The translations under genes and the position numbers were made by a program. A stretch of 64,000 bases of DNA from Desulfofarcimen acetoxidans DSM 771 (GTDB lineage: Bacteria; Bacillota; Desulfotomaculia; Desulfotomaculales; Desulfofarciminaceae): assembly GCF_000024205.1 (NCBI RefSeq), contig NC_013216.1:1488001-1552000 (forward strand), in the 5' to 3' direction. Shown in pieces: positions 1-18,959 of the stretch. Numbering within the stretch: position 1 is the stretch's first letter; each line of letters begins with the position of its first letter. Under the pieces are notes generated by a model. That model did not search any database. It had not been told where the DNA came from and saw nothing but the letters and a program-made list of their open reading frames with translations.

Positions 1-377
1 AATTTCTCAGTCACAGGGTTTTTTAATTGGGGAATACGGCTTAGCTCAAGAGCGATGGATTGCAGGGTCACATCTTTGTCTGCTGCAAACCATAGATAGG
101 ATTTGAGCGCCGCCAGGCGTTGGTTACGTGTGCCGGGCTTATTCCCTTGAGCTGCCAAATATTCAAGGAACCCGAAAATGCAGTTCCGCGTACACTGTGC
201 AAATGTAAATTTAGTTATGGATATATTGAGCTCGTTCAGCACGTATCTGCGAAAAATAGTCAGAGCATCCCTGTAAGACTCTATCGTGTCAGGACTCCGT
301 CCCACTTGCTTTACCATATATATGTCAAGAAACTCATAGGTCATTGAGAAAAACAGATTACTGTTGCTATTCTTCAT
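1..377 (-). CDS. third tyrosine recombinase of the RIT trio (N-terminal part)
   Basis: This is a partial gene that runs off the left edge. Translation from the ATG at 377 gives about 125 residues with the helical core-binding (SAM-like) domain of phage-type integrases; a typical stretch reads GRSPDTIESYRDAL. The catalytic domain would lie outside the window. The start overlaps the end of the upstream recombinase by 11 bases (ATGAAGAATAG contains both start and stop), so the two are translationally coupled. Position in the trio and the fold support recombinase function, but the catalytic residues cannot be checked. Confidence 0.75.
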   Translation of the reverse strand, partial: MKNSNSNLFFSMTYEFLDIYMVKQVGRSPDTIESYRDALTIFRRYVLNELNISITKFTFAQCTRNCIFGFLEYLAAQGNKPGTRNQRLAALKSYLWFAADKDVTLQSIALELSRIPQLKNPVTEK

Positions 378-1338
378 GGGGGACCACCTCGGGGATAACC
401 CTTTTAGCAACACTGTCGTGCTTTCTGACTATTTCAAATGCGAATACAACCAGATGATAATAATACTGTGTTTCATCAATTGAGGCATGTCCAAGATATC
501 GGCTCAAATAAGGCATCATGGCTTCGAAATCCTTGCCTTCTTTCATCCAGTCATTCATTTTTGTTACCACATATGTATGCCGGAGGGAATGAACTGTAGG
601 TTTTTTATCAACCTTTCCCGCATAAGGAGTCATATTCCACAATTCGCTAAACTTTTTATCAATGCTTGTTTTCGAAAATGGTTTAAATTCATCCCGCCCC
701 GGGAAGAACCAATCCCTGTCAGGCAACAATTTCTGCATGAGCCTGTCATAGTTCCTACACATTTGCAGCATGTCTCCAGACATGAAAACCACACGGTCCT
801 TATGCCCCTTTGACTGGTAGATGGAAAGACAGCCATTTTCGAGGTTGACTGTGGATCTTTTTAGATAACAGCCTTCGGACAATCGTAACCCACAGCAGTA
901 GAACAGCCTGAACAACACACTGTATGATAATGAGAAACGCCGAAAATTTGGCTGGCAAGGTAGGAAGTTGTCAACAGCTTTGTAAAACTCATGTACTTCA
1001 TCGAATGATAGAATATGCGGGACTGAAATTTCGTTTGACTCGAAAGCGCGGGGAATGTAGGCCTCCATATTTAAAGAAATCACATACAGAGCTAATTGCC
1101 TGACGAAAGAAACCCTCTGATTGCGATAATTTTTACTTTCCGATGGCCTTTGCTCAGCCCAGGCCATCACCAGCTCTCTTGTCAGGCTGCCATTATCATA
1201 TCCGTTTTCGATACAGAATCGATCAAAGCGTTCCAGCATATACGCTTCAAATTCGTAGCTATAGCCATCAGCCCGTTTTTGCCGGATCAAGCCCGAAATA
1301 TATGGGGCCAATTGGCTTTGATACTCATAGTTTTTCAT
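367..1338 (-). CDS. tyrosine recombinase (second gene of RIT trio)
   Basis: This encodes a site-specific tyrosine recombinase of about 323 residues. The N-terminal helical core-binding domain is followed by a catalytic domain with GLRLSE (first catalytic Arg), HSLRHT (His-x-x-Arg), LGH and a C-terminal QYYYHL tyrosine cluster. I chose the start at 1338 rather than the upstream ATG because AGGAGGG lies just before it and ATGA overlaps the stop of the preceding gene. The gene is coupled at both ends to neighbouring recombinases, so the three proteins are probably made in fixed ratio and act together. Confidence 0.88.
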   Translation of the reverse strand: MKNYEYQSQLAPYISGLIRQKRADGYSYEFEAYMLERFDRFCIENGYDNGSLTRELVMAWAEQRPSESKNYRNQRVSFVRQLALYVISLNMEAYIPRAFESNEISVPHILSFDEVHEFYKAVDNFLPCQPNFRRFSLSYSVLFRLFYCCGLRLSEGCYLKRSTVNLENGCLSIYQSKGHKDRVVFMSGDMLQMCRNYDRLMQKLLPDRDWFFPGRDEFKPFSKTSIDKKFSELWNMTPYAGKVDKKPTVHSLRHTYVVTKMNDWMKEGKDFEAMMPYLSRYLGHASIDETQYYYHLVVFAFEIVRKHDSVAKRVIPEVVPHEE

Positions 1339-3260
1339 AGACTGAACCCTCCTGAATATTCGATACCCTTTAACCCAATGGCACATAAACGCATTTGGTC
1401 TTCATTGGTAGCAAGATACTCATCAACTGTATCGACGCCAACATGTCCCAGTGCTGCAGCGATTGTTGTAGCAGGATTGCCAGTTGCCAGAAGCTTTGAA
1501 GCAAATGTTTTTCTGGTCACGTGGAAACCGTGTATTGCCTCATCTTCACACTGAGCTGTTACCGCTGCTTTCAATAACCTTCCAAAGGTAGCACTACTAA
1601 ATCTACAATAGGGAGCCCGGTGATGAATAAAGATATGGTGGGAATTGCTTTGGGGTCTACCTTCACATATATAACGGTACAGGCTGTTACCTACATCAAC
1701 AGGTAATGGTAGTTTTAAATGCACACCTGTTTTTTGCTGAATAAAAGAAATTGAACTATCTTTCCATGAGATGTCGGTCAGTTTAAGGTTTGCAATGTCG
1801 GATGCTCTTAAACCCATTCTGAGCCCCAACATAATAATTGCAGCATTTCTCATCTCAATCGGGCGGTCAGCGTTTTGCCGAAAGGCATAGATAGCGTCGA
1901 TTTGGTTATCTGATAAAATATTTACAATAGATATGTGCGGTGCCATTTCTGTAGACACCGCAAGTTCGAGTGTCTCAGGTACCAGACCTCTTCTGGCAAG
2001 AAACCTTAGAAAACCACGGATCTTAATAGCATAGGCGTTCTTTCCTTCAACTGTACTGTGGTTATCCTGAGCCTGAAAATGCTTAATAACTTCAGGCGTA
2101 ATCCCCTTTTCACTGATAATACCGTGATTATCTAAAAAAACAATGAAACGGGAACAGGAATGGAGTATCATACCCAGGGTGGAACTGGCGCAACCTTCGC
2201 GTTTTCTCTCCAGGAGATACTGGGATAACAAGTTGTTGCCCCAACCGGGAAGTGAGTATTTGGGTTTATGAGTTGAAAAGCAACTGGTTGACAGAGTCCC
2301 CGTTATTAAAATCTCATTAATGCTTAGAAGAACTCTTCTAAAGACCAGGTACTTTGTTCGGGACCATTTTGCTCTTTGAAACTCAAGCCATTCCAAAGCC
2401 AAATCATTGGAATATGCGAATAAGTTTGCATCCATAAAAACTTTAAAATCTCTTGTAGCCTGAATAAACGACTTTCGAATAGAGAACGAATATTTCCAAA
2501 TTTTATGTATTTCAGCTAGTTGAGTAGTAGCCGCGTCATATTCCATCTTCGACCGGGAGATTTCTTTCTCAATATTATTAAAAAACCTTGAGAATCTATT
2601 GCGCTCTGATTCCGGTAATTCCGAAACAATAATAAGATCGGGAATGACAAATTTGTTGAGTGCAAGTCCTACGGTTTTAGGAATTAGTCCCTGGTCAGCC
2701 ATATACATAAGACAATGGCGAATTTCATTGTTACATCGATCCTTAGACTCTGATGAAATATGGCTATCTTTGATAAAAAATGATTTCACAATGTCATGGG
2801 TAATCTCAGAGGGCTGACTTATATCTGCATACTCCAAAAATAAAAAGAAACGCGAGCAAGCGTTTCTTATCTGATTCAGGTATAAAGTTCCATAGACGCA
2901 AGTTATCCTTGTAAGATAGTTGTCCAACAATGTTCTGCTCCAATTTGGAAGCTGAGTGTAGGGTGGCATACGTTCAATTTTAGTTTGCAGACTCTTGGTT
3001 ACACAACCGTTTTCCATAATGTCTGCCAGTACGCTCATCGCTTTTCTTGAACTTTTGAGTTTGGAGTTATTCCAGTGTTCTTTACTGTCATTAATCCACT
3101 GTTGGGCAAGTTCGGGGGAATGTTGAAGACCGGTTGCTTCCAGATATACTTTGAACTCCCTAGAGGCAACCCGGAATGCAGAACGGCAACTTTCTGCATA
3201 TTCAAGCGTGCGATATGCGCTGAGACCGGCTTGAACTGCTTCATCATAACATAGATCCAT
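1335..3260 (-). CDS. large tyrosine recombinase with duplicated core-binding domain (first gene of RIT trio)
   Basis: The protein has 641 residues, roughly twice the usual length. Residues about 15-215 and 245-440 are recognisably repeats of each other. Each begins with a segment of the form SxR..F..A.R(E/D)FKVxxxA and later has LPxW.xxLLxxYLxxR and CSRFxxFL, so two core-binding-like modules precede one catalytic domain. The catalytic domain has GLRASD, GFHVTRKT (His-x-x-Arg), ALGH and a late tyrosine (DEYLA). AGGAGGG precedes the ATG at 3260. It is the first gene of the trio and nearest the inferred right end. The duplication is the odd feature and may let it bridge two DNA sites; that role is inference. 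Confidence 0.87.
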   Translation of the reverse strand: MDLCYDEAVQAGLSAYRTLEYAESCRSAFRVASREFKVYLEATGLQHSPELAQQWINDSKEHWNNSKLKSSRKAMSVLADIMENGCVTKSLQTKIERMPPYTQLPNWSRTLLDNYLTRITCVYGTLYLNQIRNACSRFFLFLEYADISQPSEITHDIVKSFFIKDSHISSESKDRCNNEIRHCLMYMADQGLIPKTVGLALNKFVIPDLIIVSELPESERNRFSRFFNNIEKEISRSKMEYDAATTQLAEIHKIWKYSFSIRKSFIQATRDFKVFMDANLFAYSNDLALEWLEFQRAKWSRTKYLVFRRVLLSINEILITGTLSTSCFSTHKPKYSLPGWGNNLLSQYLLERKREGCASSTLGMILHSCSRFIVFLDNHGIISEKGITPEVIKHFQAQDNHSTVEGKNAYAIKIRGFLRFLARRGLVPETLELAVSTEMAPHISIVNILSDNQIDAIYAFRQNADRPIEMRNAAIIMLGLRMGLRASDIANLKLTDISWKDSSISFIQQKTGVHLKLPLPVDVGNSLYRYICEGRPQSNSHHIFIHHRAPYCRFSSATFGRLLKAAVTAQCEDEAIHGFHVTRKTFASKLLATGNPATTIAAALGHVGVDTVDEYLATNEDQMRLCAIGLKGIEYSGGFSL

Positions 3261-7307: not shown

Positions 7308-9188
7308 GATTTACCTTAATAATTTCAACTACACAACTGGAATTAATAGATAAAACCACAGTATTTGGTGATTGTTTCTATCAAAAGAGCATCAAACAAT
7401 TTAATTAAACAGCATAATGAAGCATACACAACACCATTTTCCATATAATTCCTAACGAATAGACACACTTATCCCTATACAACTATCGCAGGATTTTTTT
7501 TAGCTAAAGAAAGTATTGTTTTGATATTATGTAAAGCCGTATGGAGTTGCAACTTAAATCTATTTTTTTCAAGTCCATTATATTTACCCTTTCGGGCTCC
7601 ATTTTTAGTAACACAATAAATTATTCTCTCAATCCGACTACGGAAACGATACTCCTCTTTAAACTCTGCTGTTTGTTGTTGTTTACGTGCCTTTTGCAAT
7701 AATGCTTCATGCGGATGTATTCTTACTGTTCTGCCATCTTTACTTTTGGTGCATTGATTTCTTAGATCGCAATTTTGACACTGTTCTTTTGGGAATTTAC
7801 AGCATATTTCCTTTTCTCCCAGTTCCTTATCTATTTCAAGTCGAACTCCGGCAGGGCATTCTATAAATTTGTTATCCAGATCAATGATGAATTTGTCTTT
7901 ATTAAAACATCCATTTACATTGGTTGACGGAGGTACTTTGGCGATTAGTTTGATTTTTTCTTTTTTAATGTGTTTTCTGGTTTCAGCACCACCATATGCG
8001 GTATCACCGCTAAGGGAATCAGGTTTACTTCCTGTATTTTCTTGACGCTGCTTGATTAAGTCAGGTACAGGTTCACTGTCCGGAACGTTAGCAGCAGTTA
8101 TTTCTGCAGCTGTTATTATCTTGTTTTCTATACCGCCGGACATGATGTGTCCCTTGTAACCATCTGTTTTACTGCTCGTTGTTTTGCGTCCATGACGCAT
8201 TTGCGGATCTTCTACTGATATGATTCTGTCTTTAGCTACACCCTGACGGATGGCTATATTTCCATCTTTTTCTTCAATGTCCTGCTCTGCTACTATTTGC
8301 AAAAGTTCTATGCATTGGTTTAGTTCTTCACTGATTTTGGCTTTGTTCTCTTTTGCCCATAAGGCTATTGTTCTGGCGTCAAGGACCATTTCTGTGAGTA
8401 ATTTATTGCGAGCTTCTATGTTATCCCAGTCTATAGTGGGTTTTTTATTGTTAAGGTAATCATCACGATTGAGTTTTTGTCTTATATCTTCAATAAAGCC
8501 CTCAACGTCAGCCTGGCGTAATACCCGGGCTGTGGCTTTCCGGATCATGGTAAAGGTACTTTGACGGGCTGCCGCTCCATGAATCATAAATGAGTCGACA
8601 GCATCTTTATTAGCTTCTTCGAATAGCCCTGCTTCTGCTGCATTTTCTATTGTTTTCTTTAATATTTTCTTTCCCTGCTCGTCTTCTAAGAATATTTTGC
8701 GATATCTGCATAATGTGGCATGGTCAAGTTTTATCTGGGGGGTACGGCTAAGGCAAAGTGCATATTTTACGCGGTCATCGAACATTGCTGATTCTTCCAT
8801 AACACGATCGGAGTATTGTTTTTCAAGCTGTATCAGTATGGATTTCAGCATAAACACCGGGGGTAATGACGGGCGTCCCCTATTACTGGAATATAGATGG
8901 GCAAAGTCATCATCTGACAGATTTTCTTCTGCCCATTGACGCACTTTATGCCAAAATGAATTTTGGGGTATTCGTTTATACCATTCATCTGTATCAGAAA
9001 AGTTAATTTGATTTGTTAGTTTACCCATCATGGCTAAATACCCCCGCATATGGTTATTTATTTTAATTATACCATATTTACTCGTATTTTTGGGGACTTT
9101 CTTTGGATCTTATTAATTAGGTTAAAGCCTGCTTTGCAATATCTATACATTATATTAGGGAGATTGATTTTTGAAACAGTCTCCTAGG
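7275..9188 (-). mobile_element. IS1182-family insertion sequence (intact copy)
   Basis: The ends CCTAGGAGACCGTTTCAAAA (7275) and the complement of TTTTGAAACAGTCTCCTAGG (to 9188) form about 22-bp inverted repeats with one mismatch. They enclose one full-length transposase gene on the minus strand. CCTAGG at the very edges may be a palindromic target sequence rather than part of the element. Confidence 0.82.
7475..9049 (-). CDS. IS1182-family DDE transposase
   Basis: This is a full-length transposase of about 518-524 residues. The N-terminal domain has NRGRPSLPPVFMLKSILIQL and LDHATLCRYRKIF. The catalytic core has VDSFMIHGAAARQ, DPQMRHGRKTTSSKTDGYKGH, SGDTAYGG and RFRSRIERIIYCVTKNGARKG. A zinc-knuckle-like CQNCDLRNQC lies near residue 430. 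The best start is probably the ATG near 9031-9028, behind GCGGGGG, rather than 9049. No internal stops were seen, so this copy may be active. It is the parent type of the relic at 6303-7083. Confidence 0.92.
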   Translation of the reverse strand: MRGYLAMMGKLTNQINFSDTDEWYKRIPQNSFWHKVRQWAEENLSDDDFAHLYSSNRGRPSLPPVFMLKSILIQLEKQYSDRVMEESAMFDDRVKYALCLSRTPQIKLDHATLCRYRKIFLEDEQGKKILKKTIENAAEAGLFEEANKDAVDSFMIHGAAARQSTFTMIRKATARVLRQADVEGFIEDIRQKLNRDDYLNNKKPTIDWDNIEARNKLLTEMVLDARTIALWAKENKAKISEELNQCIELLQIVAEQDIEEKDGNIAIRQGVAKDRIISVEDPQMRHGRKTTSSKTDGYKGHIMSGGIENKIITAAEITAANVPDSEPVPDLIKQRQENTGSKPDSLSGDTAYGGAETRKHIKKEKIKLIAKVPPSTNVNGCFNKDKFIIDLDNKFIECPAGVRLEIDKELGEKEICCKFPKEQCQNCDLRNQCTKSKDGRTVRIHPHEALLQKARKQQQTAEFKEEYRFRSRIERIIYCVTKNGARKGKYNGLEKNRFKLQLHTALHNIKTILSLAKKNPAIVV

Positions 9189-9319
9189 TGAGGCAAATAT
9201 TAAAGGGAATTATTGTTTCTGATGATCTTCAATGTAAAAATTATTGCACTAATTTATAGACATTTGTATGTGCCGAAAGTGCGAAATAAAGCCTTAAAGG
9301 ACTTTATATATTAATATTA

Positions 9320-9347
9320 TTGACTTTTATGTAGTTAGTGGTATAAT
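9320..9347 (+). promoter_or_regulatory. strong sigma-A-type promoter for the RiPP operon
   Basis: TTGACT at 9320-9325 and TATAAT at 9342-9347 are separated by 16 bases, about 38 bases upstream of the precursor start. It is the closest match to consensus in this part of the window. Confidence 0.72.
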
Positions 9348-9384
9348 GTTCCTAAAAAATATTAATATAAGGAAGGTTGATAAA

Positions 9385-9486
9385 ATGAAGAAAATTACTT
9401 TAAAATGGAAAGTTGCTAAAATCAAAGACAGTGCTCGAGTAAGCGCGATGTATTGCTTTAAAAGCTGTGAAAAGAACCAAAATTAG
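9385..9486 (+). CDS. putative RiPP precursor peptide (33 aa)
   Basis: A 33-residue ORF starts at ATG 9385 behind AAGGAAGG. It begins MKKITLKWKVAKIKDSARVS and continues AMYCFKSCEKNQN. The first two thirds are Lys-rich and leader-like; the last third carries the only two cysteines (CFKSC), the likely modified core. It sits between a strong promoter and a terminator-like hairpin, directly upstream of a radical SAM/SPASM protein whose N-terminus looks like a RiPP recognition element. A thioether or other Cys-based crosslink (sactipeptide/ranthipeptide type) is the most likely modification, but that is inference. I do not recognise the precursor family. It is too short for routine ORF callers. Confidence 0.72.
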   Translation: MKKITLKWKVAKIKDSARVSAMYCFKSCEKNQN

Positions 9487-9528
9487 TTCTACATAGTATT
9501 GATCGATATGAGATATATTATATAGATA

Positions 9529-9575
9529 CGATTTATTTGTCGCTTGGTAAATAGGATGAATAAATCGTTTTTTTT
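9529..9575 (+). terminator. hairpin with T-tract between precursor and maturase
   Basis: CGATTTATT (9529-9537) pairs with AATAAATCG (9559-9567), followed by eight T residues. A leaky terminator here would give much more precursor than enzyme mRNA, as is common in RiPP operons. Confidence 0.65.
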
Positions 9576-9600
9576 ATAGATTATTTTCTTTTGAGGGAGT

Positions 9601-10929
9601 ATGTACGTGACTATGGATGAACGTGAGATGCAATTAGACATTACAAAACAATACAACATGCCGAATAACTTATCTCGTAAATATTTGCCGGATGGTATTT
9701 TAATAATTTCTGTTGATACGGCCAATTGGGTTTTGTTGCATAATCATGAGCAGGAAAAGATATTTGACTTGTTAATTGCCTATTCTATTGAAGATGTCCT
9801 AAACCAGCTTGAAAGTTCTGACCTGAGTCTGGACGACCTCTTGTATGTGCTGACTGAATTGGAAGCAAAGCAATTTGAATCCGACAAGCAGAAAGAGCAG
9901 GGATTGAAAAGCCTAAATCTATATATGACGAACAAGTGCAATCTTTGCTGTAGACACTGCTATATGTTTGCGGGCACGCCGCTGGAGAATGAGTTGCAAT
10001 CAAACGAAATACTTGTTTTGCTGAAAGAATTTCAACGGTACGGTGGATGTAATCTCATTTTATCCGGCGGAGAGATTACAAATCGTGAGGATCTGAGAGA
10101 AATTGTCTCAGCAGCAAACGAACTTCATCTAAAAACCACTTTGCTTACCAACGGAACCGATTGGCCCGATGATTTAGTCGAATATATTTCCGATAAAGTT
10201 GCCGAAGTGCAAGTGAGTATTGATGGTTATGATGAGGAGAGTAACTCGAAAATAAGAGGTATCGGACAATTTCAACGAGCTCTTGATACTGTTAAACGTT
10301 TATTTGACAAAGGAGTTCGTGTAACAGTTGCAGTAACCCCTATGTACCCCATTGATAAGGTGAAATACATTAATTTTGGTAAACTGTTGATGGATACATT
10401 TTGTAGCGAAAATTTCAACATAAAATTCTCGTATGAGCTTATGGGGGGGCGGGATTATTCATCAACTCATATTGATAATGAGGCATATCGTAAAACTGTC
10501 GAGGACATTGTGGAATTCATTTATCCGGGTAACAAACTTGAAAAATTTGCCCTTAATCACAAAAATAAAATGTTATTCAGCAACTGCGGATACGGAGCAC
10601 TGACGGTAGCTGCAGACGGTGGTGTGTTTTTTTGCAATAGGGTGTCTGATTTAAAATGTTACGGAAACATAAGAGATATGACTTTTGAAAAAATTGCTCA
10701 GCTTGCGGATAAAATCTGCGTGCTGTCGGATGTTGATAATTTAATGCCCTGCAAAGACTGTAACCTTAAATATATTTGTGGAGGTGGCTGCAGGATTGCT
10801 TATGTCCCGTCAATTTTACAGGCTGATCCGTATTCGGAGCTTGTTTTTCAAAGGGAGGGTTGCTCTGAGTCCGACAGGATAAAATTGTATAATAAAATGA
10901 TAGCGGCAAACCACTTATTCTATTGGTAG
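9601..10929 (+). CDS. radical SAM/SPASM peptide maturase with N-terminal RRE-like domain
   Basis: The protein has about 440 residues. Residues 1-90 resemble a PqqD/RRE winged helix (LPDGILIISVDTANWVLLHN), which in RiPP enzymes binds the leader peptide. The radical SAM core has C113-xxx-C117-xx-C120 (NKCNLCCRHC) for the [4Fe-4S]-SAM cluster, then LSGGEITN and VQVSIDGYD. The C-terminal SPASM region has cysteines near 329, 345, 384, 387, 393, 397 and 421 (CKDCNLKYICGGGC) for auxiliary clusters. The start may be GTG 9607 or ATG 9613, which fit the GAGGG spacing better. It lies 114 bases after the precursor and 18 bases before the SNF2 gene. The peptide-modifying role is strongly supported; the exact bond formed is unknown. 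Confidence 0.9.
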   Translation: MYVTMDEREMQLDITKQYNMPNNLSRKYLPDGILIISVDTANWVLLHNHEQEKIFDLLIAYSIEDVLNQLESSDLSLDDLLYVLTELEAKQFESDKQKEQGLKSLNLYMTNKCNLCCRHCYMFAGTPLENELQSNEILVLLKEFQRYGGCNLILSGGEITNREDLREIVSAANELHLKTTLLTNGTDWPDDLVEYISDKVAEVQVSIDGYDEESNSKIRGIGQFQRALDTVKRLFDKGVRVTVAVTPMYPIDKVKYINFGKLLMDTFCSENFNIKFSYELMGGRDYSSTHIDNEAYRKTVEDIVEFIYPGNKLEKFALNHKNKMLFSNCGYGALTVAADGGVFFCNRVSDLKCYGNIRDMTFEKIAQLADKICVLSDVDNLMPCKDCNLKYICGGGCRIAYVPSILQADPYSELVFQREGCSESDRIKLYNKMIAANHLFYW

Positions 10930-10947
10930 GACTTAGGGGATGTTACA

Positions 10948-13623
10948 GTGAACGATTTAATTATTAAGATAAATTTAAAAGAGTCCACAGAGCAATACTG
11001 CCTTGTTGAGACATATCTTGGCCAGTTAAAGGTCCTGAAAAAGCGGACATTTTCAGGACCTCTTAAGGCAGTTGATGTCTTGTTGGTTGATTGTGTAAAG
11101 AATCTATCTGATGATTTGTTGGAAGAAATAAAGGATTTCCTCCGTGATGAGTCGCGACAAATTAAAAAGAATAAATACCTGCTTTCATTTTCGCATTTTA
11201 TAAAATTTCTTTCATTATTGGACAATGTCAGAGGGATCTTTTGCACGTCTTACGATAGATCTCTATATGAATTGGACGGTCTGAATAAGGCCGAATTCAA
11301 AATAGCTGCCGGCGATACTTCAAATTTTCGGGGGCGGCTCTATCTCGAAATTTCTGGTGGAGAACACATCTATCTTAACAAAAAAAGCTATTGTTTTAAT
11401 GTTTTCGGGGAAACATTCATTTTTACACGTAATCATCTTTTTATTATTAACCAAAGTGTGAACGTTCCTATATTGAAAGAGCTTCTCACGTCAAAGCGAA
11501 GCATACTATCAGAATCCGATCTAAACCGGCTCCATAATACGAAAGAATCAGGAAACACGGAAAAAGTAATCGCGGATCTGCATCCAGTTCCAGTTTTGTA
11601 TGTTATGTTTGCTGGTGCAAAGGTTTCCGGAAAACTTTTCTTTTCCTATAATGGATATGAGGTGCCATGGAATTCATCTGAGGAACATCTTAACGATGAA
11701 CGAAACGGTACCGTTTATCTGCGCAGTTTAATAGACGAGAGGCGTGCTTTGTCGCAGATAAGAACTGCTGGATGGAAACAAACAGCGGGCAATAGCTTTA
11801 TTTTGGGAAATGGTGTGTCTGCAGAGAGAAGCTTGTCGACACTATTAGAAAGCCATTTTGAAATCATGACATTTGAGCATAAAAAAATTTGTTCCTCCAA
11901 AAGCGCCAGCTTTAACATATCATATGGATTGGATTGGTTTGAATTAACAGCAACTGCTGCGGGGAAGGAAGACAAGCGCGACCTGACACATCTAATTGAT
12001 CTGAAATCTCGCAAACGTTATATTGAACTGGATAATGAAATGATCCTTTTACCAGATGCAATTTGGGAAAATAGGAAAATATTTAATGAAATTGGTAGCA
12101 AATTAAAAGTCGCTAAAAATCATATCGGTCAGATTTTTGAAATTTTGGAGCAGCCGGGTGTCACTTCAACATTTTCTCCGGATGAAATTATTGATTTTGA
12201 AAACATCCATCTGCTGCTACCATCCAAGCTGGATGAAATTTTGCGGCCATATCAGAAAGACGGTGTCCGATGGTTATTATACATGTACCGGAATAACTTT
12301 GGCGGATGTTTAGCCGATGATATGGGGTTGGGGAAAACAATTCAGGCCATTGCTTTTGTTATGTCCCGATATTGGGAAGGGAAGCAGCCAATGCGTGTAT
12401 TAGTTGTTGTCCCCAAGACTTTGATTGAGAACTGGAGAGCGGAATTTAAAAAATTCGGAGGGACTATATGCGTTTGTATCTATCATGGCACAAACAGAGA
12501 GAAGGCTTTCAAGAAATTTGAACAAATCGGTGGGGTATTGCTAACCACCTATAACACACTTTTGAACGATATCGGGATTTTGAATATGATATCCTTTCAT
12601 TGTATGTTCATAGATGAGGCGCAGTATATAAAAAACTATAAGGCAAAAACATATGTGGCGGCTCAAAAAATTAAAGCACGGTCAAAATTCATCTTGTCAG
12701 GGACACCTTTTGAAAATAACATTGGTGAACTATGGGCCTTGATAGATTTAATAAATCCGGGGTATTTAGGCAATCGCACCGCATTTATAAAGAGATATAT
12801 TAACCTATCATCAGACAAATTAATTGCAAAACGTCTAAATGCCAGAATTAAGCCATTTGTTTTGCGGCGGCTGAAAAAAGACGTCCTGAAAGAGCTACCG
12901 GAAAAAACAGAGCTTAAAGTGATATGCGATATGGCTGATACGCAGCGAGAACTATATGAAAGCATTCTCATATCCGTAAAGAATGAAATAGCGCGTATGC
13001 CGAACCGTTTTGAAATCAAAGATGCATCTACTGTTTTAGAGGGGTTGCTGTACCTGAGGCAAGTATGTTGCCATCCTGCGCTATTGAAAAGAACGCTCAA
13101 CTGGAATCATTGTGATGAATCAGGTAAGTTTGATTTGTTTAAGTTAAAAATAGATGAATTGCAGGCCAACCATGAAAAGGTTGTTGTATTTAGCCAGTTT
13201 ACATCCATGCTTAGCATTATGAAAAAATGGGCGGAAGAGCAAGGATATGCTACATTTTATTTAGACGGAGCCACAATGAAACGACAGGAGGTTGTTGACA
13301 GCTTTGAGCGTTCGGATGAGGGAGTTTTCTTTATCAGCTTGAAGGCGGGTGGCGTTGGGCTTAATATTGTATCATGCCAATACGCGATTATTTATGACCC
13401 CTGGTGGAATCCGGCTGTTGAAAATCAGGCATCTGATAGAATTTATCGCATCGGACAGAAAAAAAACGTATTTGTTTACCATCTGGTCACGGCAAACTCT
13501 ATCGAGGAAAAAATCGAGAAACTGAAAACCGAGAAGAGAGAAATTGCCGACAATCTCCTGCTCGACACTAGTATATCAGGCATACTATCAATTAAGGAAT
13601 TAAAAAGGCTGATTGTGGAATAG
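10948..13623 (+). CDS. SNF2-family DNA-dependent ATPase/helicase
   Basis: The protein has 891 residues and starts at GTG. The N-terminal 420 residues include a part resembling the bacterial SNF2-associated domain (YGLDWFELTATAAG ... RKRYIELDNEMILLP). The SF2 motor follows: Walker A ADDMGLGKT near residue 455, DEAQ near 556 (MFIDEAQYIKN), LSGTPFENN, and motif VI QASDRIYRIGQ near 830. No nuclease or methyltransferase domain is attached. It follows the maturase by 18 bases and precedes the TPR gene by 6, so it belongs to the operon. A helicase in a RiPP operon is unexpected. It could be target, immunity, regulator or an unrelated passenger; nothing in the sequence decides this. Confidence 0.88.
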   Translation: MNDLIIKINLKESTEQYCLVETYLGQLKVLKKRTFSGPLKAVDVLLVDCVKNLSDDLLEEIKDFLRDESRQIKKNKYLLSFSHFIKFLSLLDNVRGIFCTSYDRSLYELDGLNKAEFKIAAGDTSNFRGRLYLEISGGEHIYLNKKSYCFNVFGETFIFTRNHLFIINQSVNVPILKELLTSKRSILSESDLNRLHNTKESGNTEKVIADLHPVPVLYVMFAGAKVSGKLFFSYNGYEVPWNSSEEHLNDERNGTVYLRSLIDERRALSQIRTAGWKQTAGNSFILGNGVSAERSLSTLLESHFEIMTFEHKKICSSKSASFNISYGLDWFELTATAAGKEDKRDLTHLIDLKSRKRYIELDNEMILLPDAIWENRKIFNEIGSKLKVAKNHIGQIFEILEQPGVTSTFSPDEIIDFENIHLLLPSKLDEILRPYQKDGVRWLLYMYRNNFGGCLADDMGLGKTIQAIAFVMSRYWEGKQPMRVLVVVPKTLIENWRAEFKKFGGTICVCIYHGTNREKAFKKFEQIGGVLLTTYNTLLNDIGILNMISFHCMFIDEAQYIKNYKAKTYVAAQKIKARSKFILSGTPFENNIGELWALIDLINPGYLGNRTAFIKRYINLSSDKLIAKRLNARIKPFVLRRLKKDVLKELPEKTELKVICDMADTQRELYESILISVKNEIARMPNRFEIKDASTVLEGLLYLRQVCCHPALLKRTLNWNHCDESGKFDLFKLKIDELQANHEKVVVFSQFTSMLSIMKKWAEEQGYATFYLDGATMKRQEVVDSFERSDEGVFFISLKAGGVGLNIVSCQYAIIYDPWWNPAVENQASDRIYRIGQKKNVFVYHLVTANSIEEKIEKLKTEKREIADNLLLDTSISGILSIKELKRLIVE

Positions 13624-13629
13624 AAAGAA

Positions 13630-14634
13630 GTGAGTGGAATGCAGAAAGATGGTTTGGCCAAGAATCTGATCAGGTACACTGCCTTTGCTGCTATGGTTGC
13701 ATATATAGTAATAATGTTCATGATAGTGACCGCTGCTATTTTTAATATGAATAATAATCCGATAAACGCCGTTATCAACAACTTAAGCCAATCTAAACAT
13801 ATTACAACCGCCAGCATATCGGCAATTGAAGCTGCTACCTCGAATGCCATTTCATCTACTACTTTAATTGTCACGGTTGCAGGCGTTTTTATGACAGTAC
13901 TATCTATTTTTGCAGCCATGCTTGTTTATATTACTAATGCAAAACTTGATGATGTGGGTAAAAAAATAGCTGAATTTGACACACGAATTAACGTTGAAAC
14001 TTATATGAGACATGTGTTCTCTGGAATACGTTATTGGAGTAAGGGGCTTTACAGTTACGCATTAGAAGAATTTAAACCGGGATTAATGAGTAAAGACAAT
14101 GCTTGCTGTTTAAGTGCAAACTATTATATGGGACTACTTTACATCGAACGGTTTAATGAAAATAAGAACCTTAGCGATTTCACGGAAGCAGAGTATCATT
14201 TGCAGAGAGCAATAAAATTTGCACCAGATATAGACCCAATTATTGTTAACGATTCATATGCCTCTTTTGGTTGCCTTTATGGACTTCGGGCAGAAAAAGA
14301 TTTCGATAGCCCATTCCGTGACGATTATTTAAACAAATCAGAGGAATTTATAAAAAAGTCTATTGATTCATTCGGGCTAGCAGTACATTATAAGAATTTA
14401 GCCATCACTTATGCGCTTAAGAATAACATTGGGAAATCGATTGAATGCTTGGAAAAAGGAATTGAACGGGATGCGGAAGAGAAGGGAGTAATCGATCAAG
14501 AAATGCGAAAAGAAAAAGCCAGAGAGTTTATAGGAATAGGAAAAGAAAAAGTTCTATTTAGCGAGAAAGAAAAAGAATTAATTCCAGACATATGTGAAGA
14601 AATCATAGATTATTTCGTCAGGAAATATTGTTAG
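13630..14634 (+). CDS. membrane-anchored TPR-like protein
   Basis: This is a protein of about 331-334 residues (start GTG 13630 or ATG 13639). Two hydrophobic helices at about 15-40 and 75-105 (AAMVAYIVIMFMIVTAAIF; TLIVTVAGVFMTVLSIFAAM) form a hairpin. The C-terminal 200 residues are helical, with TPR-like repeats (ANYYMGLLYIERF, HYKNLAITYALKNNIGKSIE). The topology predicts a cytoplasmic TPR domain at the membrane. It is the last gene of the RiPP operon, 6 bases after the SNF2 gene. It could be an immunity or export-assisting factor. No transporter or protease gene is visible in the operon. Confidence 0.7.
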   Translation: MSGMQKDGLAKNLIRYTAFAAMVAYIVIMFMIVTAAIFNMNNNPINAVINNLSQSKHITTASISAIEAATSNAISSTTLIVTVAGVFMTVLSIFAAMLVYITNAKLDDVGKKIAEFDTRINVETYMRHVFSGIRYWSKGLYSYALEEFKPGLMSKDNACCLSANYYMGLLYIERFNENKNLSDFTEAEYHLQRAIKFAPDIDPIIVNDSYASFGCLYGLRAEKDFDSPFRDDYLNKSEEFIKKSIDSFGLAVHYKNLAITYALKNNIGKSIECLEKGIERDAEEKGVIDQEMRKEKAREFIGIGKEKVLFSEKEKELIPDICEEIIDYFVRKYC

Positions 14635-15061: not shown

Positions 15062-15079
15062 TTTTAGGTCACTACTTTC
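15062..15079. repeat. 18-bp direct repeat, left copy, flanking the IS1634-type element
   Basis: TTTTAGGTCACTACTTTC occurs here, overlapping the last codons of the transposase. It recurs in the same orientation at 16992-17009 beyond the transposase start. The orientation is direct, not inverted, so it is not a normal terminal inverted repeat. Confidence 0.8.
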
Positions 15080-16933
15080 TTGAACCAACTAAGTTATGTT
15101 TTCTTCTTAATTTGTCTCTTGTTCCTAATAATTTGTAAATTTCCTTATGTGCCACTTCGGGTGTTCCAGATACTCGTATGTGATGAATATGTTGCTCACT
15201 GTCAGTAAAAATGATAGTATTCCGCTGGTGCGTAGAAAGTTCTTTTTTTATAGTAGACCATTCGCGGTGATCACCTTTTTCACGCAATTGGTGCTCAATA
15301 CTAATTAATAAATGGTAAGCTAAAACTGAGATAAATAAATGTGCTTTAGTACGTTCTGATAGTTGATGATATACTGGCCGCATACCCAGTTCAGTTTTAA
15401 GATCTCTAAATGCACTTTCTACTCTTGTTAACGTCATATACTGATGCCATATTTCTTGGGCAGTCATGTTTTCATGACTGGTCTCAATTACATAGCAACC
15501 TGTCAAGATAGAACGTTTCTCCATGATGATTTTTTTGTCCCATGTTACTGACCTTACTTGCTTTTGGTCATCCGATAGTTCCATTTTGATTTCGTAATAA
15601 CGATTTATTGTTGGATATCTACCCTTAATTCTACCAATTCGTTCTGCCACTTTATCAATTAGAATAACATTTTTCTTTGCCACTGAATTTTGTAGTTTGG
15701 TAATATCCTCAATAAATCTTTTTTCCTTTAATGCATTCATTGCTTGTTCTTTTCTTTCACGACCTACACTCAAACATAATACACGACTTCCTTGTTGCCG
15801 CTTTGCTTTGTTGCTAATGGGATTAGCGGTTTAATTCCTTCGTTTTTATCAATGCGTTCAAATGTACTGCGGGCATTTCTAAAATCTTCTTCATAGTCTT
15901 TTTCTACCGAACGGCGTTCGATGATAGTATAAGGGTATTTCTTGGATTTAATTAACTCAATGTTTTCTTTGGTTGCTATACCACGATCCATTACTATTGT
16001 AGGAAGTATGTCGTGAAAAACTAATCCACCGTCAGTATAGACCTGGTTTAATATTTCCTCCAATGTTTGTGGCTCAGATTGATTACCGCTGTATATTTGG
16101 CTAAATACCGGAAAGCCATACTGGTCTACCACCAGCGCCAGTGTAACTAAAGGACAATCAGTCCGCTTTTCTTTGGATTTACCCCGGGCTGCCAGTTCAT
16201 TATTTTGGCAACTACCTTCAAAATATGTATTAGTTAAATCATATAAAAACAAGGTTGTATTTAGAGAAAATAAACTAATCTCATTGCTTCGCAAGCCCTG
16301 CTCTATCTGGCTTTTATGAGCATAAAGCACATCAGCAATCTCGTAAAAAGCATCCTTGCCCCGTGCTGTCACATCAACCGGAGTCATTTCTGCCAATGCT
16401 GTACGATTACAAAACCATTTCCAAGTACCCAAATCGCTTGAAGGCGCAACTAACCTGCCAATAATAACGGCTTTAGACAAAGATATTTCGCTTTCATCTA
16501 AACCACAGGATTTTAAAAAAGTGTCAAATTCTAAACGTTCCCACATTGAATTGGCGACCAATTCTGGACCCAGGGAGCGAGAATCTCCAGTTGTTGCGCT
16601 GTTCAAATCTACAGAATACATGTCCTCTTGTGACTTGCGCTCCAATTTCTCCTGCTGTCTGGTTTGGGTAAAGAGATAGTGTTCCATAGCCTGATCAGCA
16701 ATCTTGGCAACATCAGGATCTAAATCTTCAAATAGCGACACTTGCCCTGCCAGCCTGGCCTCTAAAAAGGATGCAAGTTTTCGCCACTCTGTTTTGGGCA
16801 GTGTAAGAGTACCCAAATGCATTCTTATCCGTTGGCGAGGGCCTTTCTCAGTCTTAACTGATTCAACCAGGCGGTGAGTAATATATTTAGTTTGTGTTTT
16901 TTTGTTTGTAGTAACATATTCATGAATAAACAT
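15072..16933 (-). pseudogene. IS1634-type DDE transposase split by a frameshift
   Basis: Two adjacent minus-strand ORFs together give one transposase of about 620 residues. The upstream part (16933-15770) has MHLGTLTLPK, LFLYDLTNTYFEG and LALVVDQYGFPVFSQIYSGN. The downstream part (15773-15072) has LTRVESAFRDLKTELGMRP with the last acidic residue and AHLFISVLAYHL. The join reads VVYYV then a stop; one extra base before GTTTGAG would restore YYCLSVGRER. The single-base lesion near 15775 probably inactivates it, although a sequencing error cannot be excluded. Confidence 0.85.
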
Positions 16934-17536: not shown

Positions 17537-18262
17537 TTACTTAACAACCGTTAAAGGAAATTCGTAAGTAAATTCATAGCAGTCTGCCCGATCCACAAGT
17601 AGACAGTATTCAAGTAAACAACCTTTCGAGTCGTAAACGAGCCTTGTTATCCTTACCGTCGGTAAGAAAGTAAGACGCGGCAATCGCAATAATTCTTGTT
17701 CTTCCAGATTAGGAGAAGAAACCACCAGCGATTCCCTGCAGGTTGTAGGATTAAAACCATACTTTTTCATAAGACTGTAAAGTTCAACAGCCGGATCCAT
17801 GAGTTCCTCTTTAAATTTTTCCAGAGGAATATTGTTAGATAAATATGCTTCCGAGATAGCAACCGGAATATTGTCTCTATATTGCCTGGTTTTATATTTA
17901 AGAATCGGAAAGCTAAAATGCTTACTCACATCTTCGGGTGCCTCATCTGCAGTATCAATTATTTTGAGCTCTAAGATTTCCTGGGTACCTCGGCTACCGA
18001 CCTCTGTAAGAAATCCGGCACTTCGGACAGAACGTTCCGGAGGTTTATATACTGTACGACGGTTGCTGCTGCTGCCGCTTGATATAACCAGTCCTTCTGT
18101 AATTAGTGCATTTACGGCCTGTTGAATAGTAGCCGCGTGAACTTCAAATGTTTTCATGAGTTCAAGATTAGTGGGAAAGTCCTGGCCTGGTTTGAATTTC
18201 CCTGAGATAATCTGCTCACGCATTGTATCCGCAATCTCTTCCCATTTTCTTTTTCTACTCAT
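17537..18262 (-). CDS. GntR-family transcriptional regulator with UTRA-type sensor domain
   Basis: The protein has about 241 residues. The N-terminal winged HTH is typical of GntR (WEEIADTMREQIISGKFKPG, TFEVHAATIQQAVNALITEG). The C-terminal domain resembles the UTRA ligand-binding fold (VAISEAYLSNNIPLEKF, RITRLVYDSKGCLLEYCLLV). I chose the ATG at 18262 because ATGAGTAG overlaps the stop of the creatininase gene, which places it second in a two-gene operon. It probably represses the operon through the repeated sites at 18980-19053 and responds to a small molecule linked to the creatininase-family enzyme. Confidence 0.9.
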   Translation of the reverse strand: MSRKRKWEEIADTMREQIISGKFKPGQDFPTNLELMKTFEVHAATIQQAVNALITEGLVISSGSSSNRRTVYKPPERSVRSAGFLTEVGSRGTQEILELKIIDTADEAPEDVSKHFSFPILKYKTRQYRDNIPVAISEAYLSNNIPLEKFKEELMDPAVELYSLMKKYGFNPTTCRESLVVSSPNLEEQELLRLPRLTFLPTVRITRLVYDSKGCLLEYCLLVDRADCYEFTYEFPLTVVK

Positions 18263-18959
18263 TTTCAACAAACTCCATAATAACTTTTTCGCATTCTTTG
18301 ACAAGGATATTAAGTAAAGCAACTCCTTTTTCCTCAGTTGCCCGGGACGGAAAACCTATAGCACCGGTATCCGTATATCTTTTCATTCCGAGAACTTCAA
18401 ACAGTGGTCTGGATGGAGAATCTACATCTTTAACACCCGAAGGATTAATTGTCTCCGGGTTTAAATGCATTATCAAGGAAGTTTCCCCTTCTCCAGCGTG
18501 CATATCTTTACTGATAGTTGTGGATATTCCTGCTTCTTGATAGGCAATATCCCAGGCCGATTTCGAAGGTGTCAGGAGTACCCTGGGACCAAAACGGTTG
18601 AGTTCTTGGACAACATTTCTCAGGAAATGATTGCCTTGGTGGCCGTTAACAATCACACATTTTTTAATATTAGAGAATTCAAGTGAATCCAGAATATCTT
18701 CAATAACTGCAGCTATTGTGCTGACTTTTAGTGAAACAGAGCCGGGAAACCCCGAATGCTCAAAAGAAGAAGTAAACGGGAATAAGGGTAATAAGTAAGA
18801 TTTATTAAATTTACCGGCCAGCTTTGTTGCTAACCCGTTGGCTATAAGACTGTCAGTGGATAGAGGCAGATGCCATCCGTGTTGTTCTATTGAACCTACA
18901 GGGAGAATAGCAAACTCAACATCAGTTAATTCAGGCCACTTGGAATTTGTAGTTAACAT
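18255..18959 (-). CDS. creatininase-family amidohydrolase
   Basis: This is a 234-residue metal-dependent amidohydrolase. The family's metal ligands are visible in GSIEQHGWHLPLSTD (Glu, His, Asp), NGHQGN (His) and DMHAGEGETS (His and Glu). The family includes creatinine amidohydrolase, riboflavin-pathway formamide hydrolases and the MftE peptidase; the substrate here cannot be told. AGGTGAT lies before the ATG. It overlaps the downstream GntR gene by 8 bases, so enzyme and regulator are co-expressed. No creatine or urea pathway genes are nearby. Confidence 0.9.
   Translation of the reverse strand: MLTTNSKWPELTDVEFAILPVGSIEQHGWHLPLSTDSLIANGLATKLAGKFNKSYLLPLFPFTSSFEHSGFPGSVSLKVSTIAAVIEDILDSLEFSNIKKCVIVNGHQGNHFLRNVVQELNRFGPRVLLTPSKSAWDIAYQEAGISTTISKDMHAGEGETSLIMHLNPETINPSGVKDVDSPSRPLFEVLGMKRYTDTGAIGFPSRATEEKGVALLNILVKECEKVIMEFVENE

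Follow-up and report, generated by a model that had tools for sequence, protein, structure and literature searches.

The described systems closest to the locus analysed here are the radical S-adenosylmethionine (SAM) enzymes of the SPASM type and the ribosomally synthesized and post-translationally modified peptides (RiPPs) they mature, namely ranthipeptides and sactipeptides (CteB, SkfB, TigE) and the SuiB system. The locus is an operon in a 64,000-nucleotide stretch of the Desulfofarcimen acetoxidans DSM 771 genome (NC_013216.1, positions 1,488,001 to 1,552,000; hereafter the window), encoding a 33-residue peptide, a maturase, an SNF2 ATPase and a membrane-anchored protein with tetratricopeptide repeats (TPR). 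As in these RiPPs, a small Cys-bearing precursor with a conserved leader and Cys core lies upstream of an adjoining maturase, which has the radical SAM motif CxxxCxxC, the SPASM Cys and an N-terminal domain resembling a RiPP recognition element (RRE), with predicted leader binding; the maturase folds match as well. Unlike these RiPPs, the system has a near-invariant core, an SNF2 partner and orphan precursors in phages, and the dedicated exporter typical of exported RiPP clusters is missing from its loci. The pathways for pyrroloquinoline quinone (PQQ; PqqA/PqqE) and mycofactocin (MftA/MftC) share with it a conserved short precursor, a SPASM maturase with an RRE and, at many but not all of the loci described here, a candidate peptidase in the cluster, an M42 aminopeptidase. 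They differ from it in its SNF2 partner, patchy distribution and phage-borne precursors, and no downstream redox enzymes were seen. An SNF2 motor is also found in ZorD of Zorya, in DpdE and in DrmD of DISARM, with similarity at the superfamily level and a different N-terminal domain, and the window operon, consisting of precursor, maturase, SNF2 and TPR genes, contains none of the other genes of these systems. This combination of parts is not known from any described kind of system; the biosynthetic half, taken by itself, would represent a SPASM RiPP variant not described before. No description of a radical SAM maturase combined with an SNF2 protein and a RiPP, or of the motif YCFKSC, was found in the literature searched, which covered few subscription journals, so that an earlier account elsewhere is possible.

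The precursor, the RRE-radical SAM-SPASM maturase and the SNF2 ATPase make up a module that is conserved across Bacillota, Spirochaetota and Bacteroidota. Searches with the maturase in related genomes led to four loci (L014, L015, L016 and L018), each with this peptide upstream (64-91% identity overall, no differences at MYCFKSC and NQN). A scan of 84,980 GTDB species with a DNA pattern of the core alone, blind to neighbouring genes, returned 24 stretches, 11 of them genuine precursors that each end in MYCFKSCxxNQN and a stop codon, and the others chance matches. Ten of the 11 are followed by a maturase and then an SNF2 gene; among these loci, the contig of L059 stops within SNF2, and the SNF2 frame of L058 is split. 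The eleventh, in Pelotomaculum SL1 (L015/L030; L015:8931-10855), is decayed, with an intact precursor, a frameshifted maturase and SNF2 lost; a macro-domain DarG-like gene adjoins it. Carriers are Pelotomaculum, Heliophilum, Anaerosolibacter, Megasphaera, Lachnospira, metagenome-assembled genomes (MAGs) of Lachnospiraceae and Clostridia, two Spirochaetia MAGs and a Prevotellaceae MAG. One further locus, L061 from IMG/VR, was reached via its maturase and has the variant core MYCFRNCDVNKN. Altogether, the precursor is conserved at 12 bacterial loci, and orphan forms occur in 10 phage contigs. The pairing with SNF2 proposed in the first-pass annotation, made from the letters of the window without database searches, is thus borne out across phyla: precursor, maturase and SNF2 co-occur across species, and the TPR gene does not follow them.

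The core MYCFKSCxxNQN is near-invariant despite maturases that are mostly 32-43% identical, which argues for one conserved product, unlike diversifying bacteriocins. Its codons vary synonymously, Ser27 being spelled by both AGY and TCN codons. Since the core is conserved as protein with synonymous changes free, the 33-codon open reading frame (ORF) is a real gene and not a chance ORF, and the non-conservation that would have told against the first-pass annotation was not found. Strict identity at Ser and Q is partly ascertained, because the core-only pattern fixed Q and restricted the Ser position. When 392 genomes of one order, that of a Lachnospiraceae member, were scanned with a pattern that left the Ser and NQN positions open, only two hits were genuine, and both read CFKSCxxNQN. 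The module is rare and patchy, being present in these 2 of 392 genomes in one order and in a few of about 400 in the phylum, and it has mobile-element neighbours. A small Cys peptide followed by an RRE-SPASM maturase is how RiPP loci are usually laid out, and this layout would suit an ordinary secreted product, a bacteriocin or a signal, to which SNF2 and the other neighbours are incidental. This explanation was already disfavoured and is very improbable, since no transporter gene lies between precursor and SNF2 in any module locus, SNF2 is found at all undecayed loci in three phyla, the core is nearly invariant, and phages carry orphans without a maturase. The lack of a transporter noted in the first pass extends to the genes adjoining the module loci.

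In the maturase, the radical SAM Cys (C113/117/120) and seven further Cys in the SPASM region are invariant among 11 homologues. The AlphaFold2 model (mean pLDDT 78.5) has an N-terminal β3α3 unit typical of RREs, and the closest solved folds are SkfB (Z 24.3), SuiB (23.3), CteB (20.2) and TigE (18.1). The alignments with CteB and TigE start at residues 21 and 13 and therefore include the RRE, in agreement with the RRE-like N-terminus read from the sequence before. None of the NCBIfam maturase models came near its cut-off, the best being StsB with 107.6 bits against 625. Viperin matches from PADLOC were rejected because they reflect the generic radical SAM core alone in a protein that also contains a SPASM region and an RRE. 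An alternative start, ATG at 9613, agrees with the start of the closest relative. Maturase homologues with unrelated neighbours, which could have spoken against the proposed operon, do exist at about 33-36% identity (L017 and L085), with other partners and other small ORFs, yet wherever a MYCFKSC precursor lies at an undecayed locus, both a maturase and SNF2 accompany it. The partner of the L017 maturase (9152-10492) is a second radical SAM protein and that of the L085 maturase (8076-9398) a Cys-rich YcgN-like protein; these are related maturases at 35-36% identity, and other small Cys ORFs lie nearby. The maturase tree is compatible with one as well as with several origins of the SNF2 association. 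In phage and plasmid collections, the maturase search gave distant radical SAM matches only, plus Treponema saccharophilum. On plasmid pTS1 of this bacterium, two small Cys-rich ORFs (L006:12475-12755) lie downstream of a maturase-SNF2-methyltransferase operon; these candidate precursors have the LTLTWNV leader motif in common with the window precursor and different cores (KCFGCFNCC..., CYYTFKNCNEC...).

Every motor motif is present in the SNF2 protein, and the motifs are invariant. With a profile of its N-terminal region, scores of 470-499 bits were obtained solely in the three module genomes among 274 Bacillota genomes, and the next hit, in a fourth genome, reached 35.6 bits. A fold search of the PDB with a model of this domain (the first ~430 residues) gave no match at E<=0.001.

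An M42 aminopeptidase gene immediately precedes the precursor gene at L018, L055, L056, L057, L058, L059, L060 and L061 (six Pfam-confirmed), which makes its product a candidate leader-peptidase; in genome G496 the module-adjacent M42 is the sole one. None lies beside the module at the window, L014, L015, L016 or L054. The absence of a leader peptidase reported in the first pass thus holds for the window locus and does not hold as a property of the system. A terminator-like hairpin with a T-rich tail follows the precursor in all 12 loci, with sequences that differ beyond the closest relatives. The hairpin of the window is AT-rich (ACGATTTATT...AATAAATCGT, then T7) and was overlooked by a G+C-based terminator scan. 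Precursors of several relatives have comparable TTGAC...TATAAT-like sites upstream, as read by eye. The TPR protein was rejected as a core component because it is not conserved: no homologue was found at the other module loci, bar a marginal resemblance in Lachnospira, and it is regarded as accessory in the window genome. In Lachnospira, a 333-amino acid membrane-anchored protein (L058:7110-8108) about 6 bases after SNF2 matches the window TPR protein in length and place, with marginal similarity in sequence (E 0.016).

Scans with relaxed patterns over 2.9 million IMG/VR viral contigs yielded precursor-like ORFs in ten contigs besides L061 (L086, L087, L089, L090, L091, L092, L094, L095, L100 and L109). 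MYCF, the second Cys and an Arg at the fourth position ahead of Met are retained in all of these orphans, although the patterns of part of the scans did not include the Arg. Further matches (L088, L098, L099, L101-L108 and L110-L116) were discarded as lacking the leader and the Arg four before MYC. A strict viral scan for CFK[S/T]CxxNQN gave chance matches only, which agrees with altered phage cores. A maturase-profile search of eight orphan records in their entirety (including records of 99, 161 and 236 kb) gave no hit, and no maturase is among the genes listed around the peptide in the fetched stretches of the other two, L100 and L109. PHROGs identified phage genes in L092 (terminase, portal, major head protein), L095 (head, sheath), L086 (primase, helicase), L109 (DNA polymerase) and L100 (primase, exonuclease V). 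L087, L089, L090, L091 and L094 are taken as phage by their IMG/VR classification and by PHROGs families whose function is unknown or non-diagnostic; for L087 and L094, kinship to L092 is a further ground. L109 is crAss-like, with a polymerase 70% identical to that of cr272_1, and L086 has the same gene order; the nearest relatives of L095 and L092 are an Anoxybacillus phage and Nitratiruptor phages. The orphan contigs thus comprise crAss-like, Bacillota-type, Nitratiruptor-like and large phages. In the two nearest annotated crAss relatives, the peptide is missing from the equivalent gap before the primase, which makes it an accessory phage gene. A tblastn search of the 33-39 amino acid peptides against annotated phages returned nothing, possibly owing to the low-complexity filter.

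When the distinct orphan leaders were compared with bacterial leaders, eight of nine beat 2000 of 2000 shuffles and the ninth beat 1993. Bacteroidota leaders give the best scores for the crAss-like peptides (L109 clearly, L086 narrowly), and Pelotomaculum leaders for the peptide of the Bacillota-type phage L095. A Ser precedes the second Cys in 8 of 9 bacteria not selected on it versus one of nine phage lineages (p 0.003 by Fisher's test, kinship ignored), and NQN has its Q replaced in eight of the nine phage lineages. The kept leader speaks for an encounter of the phage peptide with the host maturase, the kept MYCF and Cys for entry into the active site, and the loss of Ser and Gln against a plain copy; taken together, a decoy or dead-end substrate is favoured. 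Phages carry counterfeit elements such as pseudo-ToxI antitoxins and solitary CRISPR-repeat RNAs. Like these, the orphans are one small component of a host system without its enzymes; unlike them, they are putative peptide substrates with a leader and an altered core. In four of the phage contigs, a short ORF of similar pattern, DEAIxHC...C...HxQLxxWLxEL, was observed less than about 300 bases from the orphan peptide (L090:2304-2468, L091:6301-6426, L092:13014-13196 and L100:4507-4716).

The altered phage copies of the peptide alone suggest that bacteria and phages are engaged in an arms race, not described before, in which a modified peptide is at stake. The favoured reading, whose probability we place just short of even, is an intracellular module of modified peptide and SNF2 in conflict with phages that carry counterfeit precursors as decoys. 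That the module is an anti-phage system, in which a radical-SAM-modified and non-exported peptide controls the SNF2 motor and phage precursors with host-lineage leaders and altered cores serve as decoy substrates, is put forward tentatively, as plausible and still below an even chance. Defence, one of three roles suggested in the first pass, gains support from the phage-borne orphans. Under the favoured reading, the strong promoter and the conserved terminator would supply precursor in excess over enzyme. The RRE of the maturase would bind the leader (motif [IV]x[LIV]xW...R), its radical SAM/SPASM centre would crosslink or otherwise rewire the core, and the M42 aminopeptidase, where encoded, would trim the leader. 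The modified peptide would stay in the cell and be used by, or on, the SNF2 motor, whose module-tied N-terminal domain probably senses or binds it, and the motor may then act on invading DNA or nucleoprotein complexes. The host-type leader of a phage orphan would engage the maturase, and with a core usually changed at Gln32 and at the residue preceding the second Cys, the counterfeit precursor would occupy the enzyme or yield a dead-end or inhibitory product.

The order of precursor, terminator and effector in 12 of 12 loci resembles that of type III toxin-antitoxin loci. In a toxin-antitoxin or abortive infection system, an abundant and short-lived modified peptide would restrain SNF2, phage shut-off would deplete the peptide so that the motor harms DNA, and the phage orphans would be antitoxin mimics completed by the host maturase. 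The retention of leader and core Cys in the orphans is in line with this explanation, as is the decayed Pelotomaculum locus, which kept the precursor with SNF2 lost and the maturase broken. However, a precursor followed by a terminator is common in ordinary RiPP operons, and a faithful mimic should keep Ser27 and Gln32, both of which are changed in most phage copies. This explanation is considered unlikely. The same two positions bear on a role outside defence, where the modified peptide would be a cofactor-like or regulatory product aiding SNF2 in DNA repair or transcription, and the phage precursor an auxiliary gene from which the host maturase makes more product, or a phage variant, for the benefit of the phage. 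Here too the phage cores would be expected to remain faithful instead of departing at the same two positions, and a rare, patchy module with mobile-element neighbours fits such a role poorly. A near-invariant core together with a peptidase nevertheless recalls PQQ- or mycofactocin-type pathways, and most module loci are without many surrounding defence genes. A non-defence role is considered about as unlikely as the toxin-antitoxin reading.

Several points weigh against the favoured reading. Its architecture and the phage orphans are observed, and its functional steps, namely the chemistry, the contact of peptide and SNF2, the anti-phage effect and the decoy action, rest on inference from sequence. 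It is equally conceivable that the orphans benefit the phage in a different way. The phage lineages are partly kin (L087 and L094 with L092, L086 with L109), and the IMG/VR records are metagenomic and possibly incomplete. The window genome and both Pelotomaculum genomes have no strong M42 match, which implies that the trimming step is not universal. PADLOC matches of the SNF2 motor region to DpdE (443 bits) and ZorD (405 bits) reflect a similarity that is general to the superfamily and far under the curated NCBIfam cut-offs. Type I restriction-modification genes, DarG, JetA/JetD and a type II methyltransferase lie near some module loci, but such defence neighbours, by raw count, are few among 93 proteins. 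The JetA/JetD-type matches surfaced in the pooled neighbour scan.

If the favoured reading is true, RiPP chemistry would operate in intracellular immunity instead of secretion, an SNF2 motor would be governed by a modified peptide, and phages would use decoy substrates; to our knowledge, no earlier arms race over a RiPP has involved mimicry of the precursor. On the most cautious reading, there is still a new conserved class, in which a near-invariant 12-residue core is tied across phyla to a maturase and an SNF2 protein with its own N-terminal domain. In addition, a family of phage genes for peptides of about 35 residues, which tends to escape ORF length cut-offs, is described, and an unexplained peptide of crAss-like and other phages is given a testable role.

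All elements claimed in the first pass, among them the strong promoter and the terminator, are present at the positions given for them, as listed in the following table.

Features of the operon in the window (positions count from the first letter of the window)
Feature	Position	Strand	Evidence
Sigma-70-type promoter-like site of the precursor, TTGACT-N16-TATAAT, TG-extended -10	9320-9347	+	11/12 consensus positions
Precursor gene, 33 amino acids, MKKITLKWKVAKIKDSARVSAMYCFKSCEKNQN; leader residues 1-21	9385-9486	+	
Precursor core, MYCFKSCEKNQN	9448-9483	+	
Intrinsic-terminator-like hairpin and T tract in the precursor/maturase gap	9528-9577	+	dG -14.5
RRE-radical SAM-SPASM maturase, 442 amino acids	9601-10929	+	Pfam, NCBIfam, AlphaFold2 model, PDB folds, invariant Cys
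RRE-like N-terminal domain of the maturase, residues 24-89	9670-9867	+	β3α3 unit, pLDDT ~83-94
SNF2 ATPase, 891 amino acids, 18 bases after the maturase	10948-13623	+	Pfam SNF2-rel_dom and Helicase_C
Module-specific N-terminal region of SNF2	10948-12237	+	Motor begins at ~residue 432
Membrane-anchored TPR protein, 6 bases after SNF2	13630-14634	+	TPR matches weak, below cut-off

The operon is flanked by transposase genes on the reverse strand at 7475-9049 and 15072-16933. Upstream of it, two tyrosine integrases of 339 and 641 amino acids are arranged in tandem (367-3260, reverse strand) and adjoin an IS66 element. The downstream DDE transposase consists of two adjacent ORFs of 387 and 233 amino acids and is probably a frameshifted insertion sequence element. 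Beyond it, a creatininase-family hydrolase gene is overlapped by a GntR/UTRA regulator gene (17537-18959, reverse strand). The creatininase (18255-18959) is reminiscent of MftE and was rejected as part of the operon, given its position beyond the transposase and its pairing with the GntR regulator.

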